The notes under the pieces are model-generated. The model made no database searches. It saw only the letters and a list, made by a program, of their open reading frames with translations, and had not been told where the DNA came from. Positions 20,414 to 21,169 of a DNA stretch of 21,741 bases are shown here, in pieces. Location: the IMG/VR virus record IMGVR_UViG_3300042197_001631, positions 1 through 21,741 of that record; one strand, 5' to 3'. Every line of letters starts with the position of its first letter. Position 1 is the stretch's first letter. The DNA comes from a virus. The position numbers were made by a program, and so were the translations under genes.

Positions 20414-20470
20414 GAAGAATGATGGTTTTCCGCGCCACAGACTTGGAAACCATGCGGGCAGGATGGGAGG

Positions 20471-20502
20471 AAAATTTTTCATACCGCCCATGCTATATAT
20501 GG
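20471..20502 (+). promoter_or_regulatory. Rightward extended -10 promoter candidate and second copy of the 30-nt element
   Basis: TGCTATATAT (20491-20500) fits an extended -10 box (TGnTATAAT-like); no good -35 is present, as often with extended -10 promoters. Transcription would start near 20507, shortly before the hammerhead ribozyme, and read into the plus-strand genes. Confidence 0.5.
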
Positions 20503-20537
20503 CGTTCCGTCCCGCGTGTTTTATGTCGTGCGTGACA

Positions 20538-20551
20538 CCCGCGTATGCGGG
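20538..20551 (+). other. Hairpin 5' of the ribozyme
   Basis: CCCGC-GTAT-GCGGG, a perfect 5-bp stem with a 4-nt loop just before stem II of the hammerhead. The sequence ACCCG..TATGCGGG around it resembles stem I of the ribozyme (20591-20604), hinting at a degraded duplicate. Confidence 0.55.
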
Positions 20552-20555
20552 CAGC

Positions 20556-20624
20556 GTAAAGGCCCAAGCCGAAACCGCCTAGTGCGGTCTACCCGTTATG
20601 CGGGTACTGATGAGGCCAACTTAC
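20556..20624 (+). ncRNA. Hammerhead ribozyme, type II (open at stem II)
   Basis: All conserved core parts occur in the right order. The stem II 3' strand GCC (20568-20570) is followed by GAAA (20571-20574). Stem III is A-CCGC / GCGG-U with loop CTAGT (20574-20588). The cleavage nucleotide is C17 at 20589. Stem I is TACCCG / CGGGTA with loop TTATG (20590-20606). Then come CTGATGA (20607-20613) and the stem II 5' strand GGC (20614-20616). The closing pairs A15.1-U16.1, U1.1-A2.1 and G10.1-C11.1 are all satisfied. Stem II can extend past an internal loop (CAA / GCCCAA) by CTTAC against GTAAAG with one bulge. Predicted self-cleavage between 20589 and 20590 would give the downstream gene an mRNA with a 5'-OH and a 47-nt leader starting with the stem I hairpin. 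Confidence 0.88.
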
Positions 20625-20636
20625 CCTGGAGGTGCT

Positions 20637-20978
20637 ATGTCTTCGGACGAGCGCGTCGGGGCCATTCTGGCGGCTCTCGCTGAACCCTTGGCCAAGCTCC
20701 GTGAGGCAGGCAATGTTGCCTGCCCCTCGGATGACTTGGCCCGGGAGGCCATTGAGGGATGCGTCAAGCGTGATGGCTCATGGCGCAAGACTAAGCCGGC
20801 GGATGGTCCGGCGGAGTTGCTCTGGCAACTGGTGAAGTTTCATCGCGGCTCGGGTTCCCTGTACGGGTTCCCGTGGTTCGCGGATGCGGGGCTCCGGGAC
20901 CAACTGGATACCCTCGCGGTTCTGCTGCTCGGCGGGCAGTCCTCTGCGGCTGCGGCTTGGCAACGGGCCTTGTCCTGA
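20637..20978 (+). CDS. Hypothetical protein directly downstream of the hammerhead ribozyme
   Basis: A 113-aa protein. ATG 20637 has GGAGG 4 nt upstream; the frame is also open from an ATG at 20598, but that lies inside stem I and the core of the ribozyme and has no ribosome site, so it is rejected. The protein is helical: SSDERVGAILAALAEPLAKL at the start, then DDLAREAIEGCVKR with DGSWRKTKP, then WQLVKFHRGSGSLYGFPWFA and a C-terminal Leu/Ala-rich helix. No known domain is recognised. It is the first gene of a rightward unit. Its mRNA should be processed by the ribozyme, and it is followed by 218 nt of structured RNA. Confidence 0.65.
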   Translation: MSSDERVGAILAALAEPLAKLREAGNVACPSDDLAREAIEGCVKRDGSWRKTKPADGPAELLWQLVKFHRGSGSLYGFPWFADAGLRDQLDTLAVLLLGGQSSAAAAWQRALS

Positions 20979-21072: not shown

Positions 21073-21169
21073 GACGGTGTCCGAATAGCCCCCTACAGGC
21101 TAGGTACCAGAAGAGGCCCAGGTGGCCTACCGGCTAGGTACCAGAAGAGGGGGCTATTCGGCTGCCGTT
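21073..21169 (+). other. Long inverted repeat enclosing two 25-nt direct repeats (structure 2)
   Basis: CCGAATAGCCCCCT (21081-21094) is the exact complement of 21148-21161. After one mismatch, seven further pairs including G-U extend the arms to 21073 and 21169, about 22 nt each. The 53-nt interior and arm edges contain two copies of a 25-nt element (21092-21116 and 21126-21150, 24 of 25 identical): CCTAC, A or C, then GGCTAGGTACCAGAAGAGG. Each copy can form a small CCTA / TAGG hairpin and contains the palindrome GGTACC. Between the copies is a short AGGCC / GGCCT stem. No U-run follows. It is either a structured RNA leader of the next gene or a DNA site such as an origin or recombination site. 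Confidence 0.8.

Follow-up and report, generated by a model that had tools for sequence, protein, structure and literature searches.

The whole virus contig of 21,741 bases (the window) carries, judging by its core, stems and model matches, a genuine type II hammerhead ribozyme of a compact form, located in the 5′ leader of a gene encoding a 113-aa protein. Taken as a whole, the locus is probably best explained by a self-cleaving compact hammerhead that would now trim the leader of this gene and that ancestrally would have split a two-gene transcript.

Structural genes (portal, terminase, capsid) and a C5 methyltransferase gene run leftward; for the terminase, the only matches are distant ones to bacterial phages. 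A divergent intergenic region (20454–20636) is followed by rightward genes, namely the 113-aa ORF (plus strand, 20637–20978) and a phrog_2554 gene, both of unknown function. Relatives of the 113-aa protein in viral contigs share 56–74% identity, the protein gave no Pfam, PHROG or PDB match, and the gene was found neither among named phages nor in the bacterial genomes searched. Its ribosome-binding site (RBS; GGAGG, plus strand, 20628–20632) is invariant across the orthologue alignment. Within the coding sequence, 20698–20731 is an inverted repeat of 16 bp whose arms are separated by 2 nt. Between this gene and the next there is a very stable imperfect hairpin (21074–21168; −57.5 kcal/mol, z −5.35) containing two 25-nt direct repeats, CCTAC[A/C]GGCTAGGTACCAGAAGAGG, the 19-nt core of which has no exact match in viral contigs; this hairpin may represent a further structured RNA or a site bound by protein.

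The ribozyme spans 20566–20618 on the plus strand when the flanking adenines are included, with the core and three stems at 20568–20616. Stem II is formed by GCC (20568–20570) and GGC (20614–20616), giving 3 bp, with an A·C mismatch at the fourth position (20567/20617); an unpaired A (20566) lies just 5′ of it and A20618 follows C20617 on the downstream side. GAAA (20571–20574) leads into the stem III hairpin, CCGC-CTAGT-GCGG (20575–20588), with 4 bp (20575–20578/20584–20587) and the closing pair A20574–U20588. Stem I is a 6-bp hairpin, UACCCG-UUAUG-CGGGUA (20590–20606; pairs 20590–20595/20601–20606), containing the motif GUNANGC, and is followed by CUGAUGA (20607–20613), which together with GAAA aligns to the catalytic cores of both covariance models used below. 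The type II hammerhead core is complete and free of mismatches (CUGANGA, GAAA, and U16.1-H17 before the cut site), the three stems are in the correct order, and in both alignments loops close stems I and III, leaving stem II open. The original prediction of a complete type II hammerhead (CTGATGA, GAAA, C17 and three stems of 6 bp, 4 bp plus an A-U closing pair, and 3 bp) that a phage carries ahead of a translated gene is thus upheld by the sequence and by both models, which also place the predicted cut at the same position, between C20589 (C17) and U20590. The stated 47 nt before an ATG is right if counted from the predicted cleavage position, the ATG lying at 20637.

RF02276, the Rfam type II hammerhead model named in the original prediction, does match the window, at 29.8 bits (E 7.4e-4; 901 bases, 4227 families), but this lies under its gathering threshold of 37 bits. 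With R1, a model built here from 36 compact ribozymes in contigs outside the phage group of the window (the window itself being left out), the same element scores 56.8 bits (E 5e-17), and the next-best match in the window 12 bits. The shortfall with Rfam arises because the compact subtype scores poorly with RF02276: of 43 compact sites found by R1 in 20 loci, the Rfam threshold recovers 4 and misses 39. One orthologue (L002) reaches 39 bits with RF02276, and the R1 score of the window copy is the lowest of seven orthologues.

Type II hammerheads were gathered from viral contigs by two patterns, and the parsed copies (at least 249 distinct ones) fall into two main groups, one with larger loops and one compact. 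Characteristic of the compact group are a stem I hairpin of 17 nt that contains GUNANGC, a stem II of 4 bp preceded by an unpaired A, and the absence of a pseudoknot. Among the matches listed, stem II is exactly 4 bp in 122 of 125 compact copies from viral contigs, the base before it is A in all 125, and the base opposite this A is never T, both positions having been left free in the search patterns; in bacterial genomes, A precedes stem II in 75/76 compact hammerheads. The window copy has the 17-nt stem I, the GUNANGC loop, the unpaired A20566 and the R1 match, and departs from the group in stem II (3 bp plus A·C rather than exactly 4 bp); on these features it belongs to the compact group. 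An extended stem II (20556–20559 with 20621–20624), which had been put forward as a possible link between folding and translation, finds no support because stem II of the subtype ends at 4 bp with the invariant unpaired A, as seen in the 125 relatives listed, and such an extension was rejected as a translation switch at the level of the family.

Pairing between loop I and the tail separates the two groups. Among the copies listed, at least 4 bp can form in 75% of the larger-loop group versus 26% with tails swapped, and in 2% of the compact group versus 5% with swapped tails, so that a pseudoknot, no commoner than with swapped tails, was rejected for the compact form. In the window, loop I (UUAUG) and the tail (CAACUUACC) show no 4-bp match by eye. 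An alternative hairpin, in which the core CUGAUG pairs with a downstream CAUCAG or UAUCAG, was also discarded, one being present within 30 nt in only 19 of the 249 listed ribozymes. Pair counts on the 36 R1 sequences gave 191 cells changed on both sides versus 56 in shuffles; because these sequences had already been parsed by pairing, the test was repeated on matches to a pattern without pairing requirement, and 122 of the 123 listed keep all five variable stem I pairs. The compact form occurs widely and is poorly captured by Rfam, which readily finds the larger-loop group (22 matches in 13 loci holding 20 parsed copies). A literature search covering the main texts of papers from part of the journals did not find the compact form as a described type, which is weak evidence. 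Two contigs from actinobacterial genomes, L266 (Phycicoccus jejuensis) and L273 (Streptomyces iakyrus), each have three compact hammerheads with identical mutual spacing and in opposite orientation; the equal spacing probably reflects one prophage, or two close relatives, residing in both genera, or else contamination of an assembly.

Placement relative to genes was compared with random positions. For the 249 listed ribozymes, the stop codon of a long ORF falls between −4 and +10 nt relative to the 5′ edge in 75% (random, 5.7%), an RBS and start lie within 45 nt in 82% (random, 17%), and both are found in 61% (random, 1.6%); in an independent set from bacterial genomes, stop and RBS/start occur together in 46/76 versus 7/970. 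The compact form is apparently placed between genes by phages to cut long transcripts into separate messages. In 33 of the 125 compact copies listed, the invariant A is inside the stop codon of the long upstream ORF, mostly TAG, and a ribosome terminating at such a stop would cover stem II, suggesting coupling. Within a few kilobases, each of five phage contigs (L019, L083, L029, L141 and L182) has 5 to 11 type II hammerheads among the matches listed, occupying many successive gene gaps. We tentatively suggest, as a possibility somewhat short of even chances, that the compact form is an undescribed type II subtype spread over many bacterial phyla, in which the single unpaired A that always adjoins the 4-bp stem II contacts the GUNANGC loop I and replaces the pseudoknot, and that it serves phages as a standard intercistronic cutter, often sharing bases with the upstream stop codon, where a ribosome in the act of terminating would keep the ribozyme from working. 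In the window, RBS and start are within 45 nt of the ribozyme; no plausible plus-strand gene was found upstream of it in 20454–20566, and no stop codon of such a gene lies beside stem II.

Relatives of the 113-aa protein were identified in 23 viral contigs in a second search. In L230, L245, L246, L251 and L252 the gene has a compact hammerhead ahead of it, as it does in L025, which came from the pattern search. The other orthologous loci have no ribozyme before the gene, and since they are the majority the ribozyme is dispensable for it. Between the window and the six orthologues, the ribozyme is 84–94% identical and the gene 65–68% in DNA. Stem III varies among orthologues with pairing retained (CCTGCC/GGGCAGG, CCCGG/CCGGG, CCGGG/CCCGG), at lengths too unequal for fixed alignment columns. 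The fourth stem II pair is G-C in all six and A·C in the window, while the other differences between the window and its nearest copy (L251) are confined to loops.

A small ORF of 36–38 codons lies between leader and ribozyme in L025, L245, L246 and L252; its stop codon either abuts stem II or lies 3 nt from it, and downstream of the ribozyme come the RBS and the gene. L230 and L251 have no intact upstream small ORF, yet their 4-bp stem II is perfect. In the window the ribozyme starts 12 nt after a conserved leader box, leaving no small ORF, and it therefore sits in the 5′ leader; the ORF was presumably lost by deletion here rather than never present. L246 and L251 match at 284/292 positions rightward from stem I through the gene and are unrelated upstream, with different stem III sequences, indicating a recombination junction at the ribozyme. 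L240 and L241, which are without ribozyme, have a different hairpin, CCCTTACCTGCGGGTAGGGG, at the same place before the 113-aa gene (upstream of 2501), and this may be a replacement element.

The leader box is a hairpin, CCCGC-GTAT-GCGGG, followed by CAG (plus strand, 20538–20554). Most orthologous loci have it ahead of their first gene, in the form GCGCATGCGGGCAG or GCATGCGGGCAG (GCGTATGCGGGCAG in the window), directly before the RBS of that gene (positions include L230:2095, L245:2292 and L252:1533), and in most ribozyme-free loci it runs straight into the gene. A palindrome such as GTAAACGGTTTAC, which looks like an operator, usually precedes the box. The plausible rightward promoter originally proposed was not recovered, a sigma-70 scan of the region finding none on the plus strand; TATATAT (plus strand, 20494–20500), picked out by eye and present as TATATA or TATACAAT in several relatives, is a candidate −10 of a rightward transcript.

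Comparison of sequences shows the motif, its conservation, its place and the stem changes. The element is likely to act in RNA processing, which in the window would mean trimming the leader ahead of the 113-aa gene. In the proposed mechanism, a rightward transcript would cut itself between C20589 and U20590. The 5′ fragment would terminate with the stem III hairpin and bear a 2′,3′-cyclic phosphate, and the 113-aa mRNA would then begin with a 5′-OH and the stem I hairpin, its RBS ~38 nt from the new end. The hairpin ends may influence RNA stability or translation, and cleavage would be expected in the cell. The ancestral task was probably to divide a transcript of two genes into two messages whose ends are capped by hairpins, because in related phages the ribozyme separates the 36–38-codon ORF from the 113-aa gene; in the window, with the small ORF absent, the cut would remove a leader. 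Trimming of the mRNA 5′ end or release of an upstream RNA, as first suggested for this locus, is consistent with its anatomy and with the HF1/HF2 precedent (PMC3088659). Against this explanation, a fold involving GGCC at 20562–20565 is ~6 kcal/mol better in a nearest-neighbour model without tertiary energy (the same calculation gives comparable gaps of 5.5 and 5.6 for L230 and L251), the fourth stem II pair is A·C, the R1 score is the lowest of the seven, the scan gave no promoter, and most orthologues of the gene do without a ribozyme. The window copy appears slightly weakened.

The alternative that survives best, although we consider it improbable, is that the window copy is a decaying remnant, a former splitter made useless by loss of the small ORF, with A·C as an early sign of decay and cleavage slow or absent. 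The 3-bp stem II, found in only 3 of the 125 compact copies listed (window included), the low R1 score, the competing GGCC fold and the lack of a gene ahead to be separated would all fit. However, no damage is seen in the core, in the loop I motif or at the invariant A, whatever else distinguishes the copy from L251 sits in loops, and L230 and L251 have kept a perfect 4-bp stem II in the same absence of an intact small ORF. Less likely still, the ribozyme sequence could act mainly as a module boundary, a homology block for exchange of small cassettes between phages with cleavage being secondary. The junction between L246 and L251 at the ribozyme, the variation between contigs in the small ORFs ahead of it, and a 2017 review reporting hammerheads that flank small non-conserved ORFs (PMC6155905) are in line with such exchange, but a pure homology block leaves unexplained both the paired stem changes, even though that set was partly selected for pairing, and the retention of pairing in the pattern matches listed that were found without such selection.

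A regulated switch is very unlikely. In such a switch GGCC (20562–20565) and the GCC of stem II would compete for 20614–20617, the choice between inactive and active folds being set by co-transcriptional folding or a bound factor. The predicted minimum-energy fold does contain the alternative helix, but the upstream GGCC is not seen in orthologues, such alternatives are frequent in short GC-rich sequences, and the 20548–20640 fold is no better than that of shuffled sequence (z +0.74). Mere chance resemblance to a hammerhead, which the sub-threshold Rfam score might suggest, was rejected as next to impossible in view of the R1 E-value and the ribozymes at the same place in six orthologous contigs, and of the loss of most R1-found compact hammerheads at that threshold.

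The self-cleaving hammerhead proposed for the window is new at this locus and of a kind already known. Type II hammerheads of RF02276 (PMC3088659) share with it the core, the permutation open at stem II, a phage or prophage host and a position beside genes, but its score with that model is below the cut-off. The commonly described type II form has a loop I–tail pseudoknot, in place of which the compact form has its 4-bp stem II, invariant A and GUNANGC. Tandem phage or prophage hammerheads flanking single genes are known from Agrobacterium, Azorhizobium and Clostridium scindens (PMC3088659); as in relatives of the window, those ribozymes lie between genes of a polycistronic phage transcript, whereas the window has a single ribozyme and no gene ahead. 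Three tandem phage arrangements were found to cleave in vitro and one in E. coli (PMC3088659). HHphage of HF1/HF2 resembles the window copy in lying in the 5′ leader of a first gene, shortly before the start codon: this halovirus hammerhead is 13 nt before the start codon, and the 5′ end of its transcript was mapped no more than 3 nt from the cut (PMC3088659). HHphage is a structural variant in archaeal viruses (PMC3088659), whereas the core in the window is canonical and the distant matches of its terminase are in bacterial phages. RNA processing was proposed for phage hammerheads by Perreault et al. in 2011 (PMC3088659), and this proposal, the cleavage of the tandem arrangements and the halovirus leader hammerhead are the reason why we favour it here.

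What hammerheads do in prokaryotes and phages has been described as an open question (PMC6155905), to which this locus brings a natural comparison of the same gene with a ribozyme, with a ribozyme and small ORF, and with neither of them. From the many ribozymes compared comes a positional rule, stop codon–ribozyme–RBS, and a rule this firm makes the idea of mRNA processing directly testable. As the Rfam threshold overlooks most members of a common form, phage ribozymes are probably under-annotated.
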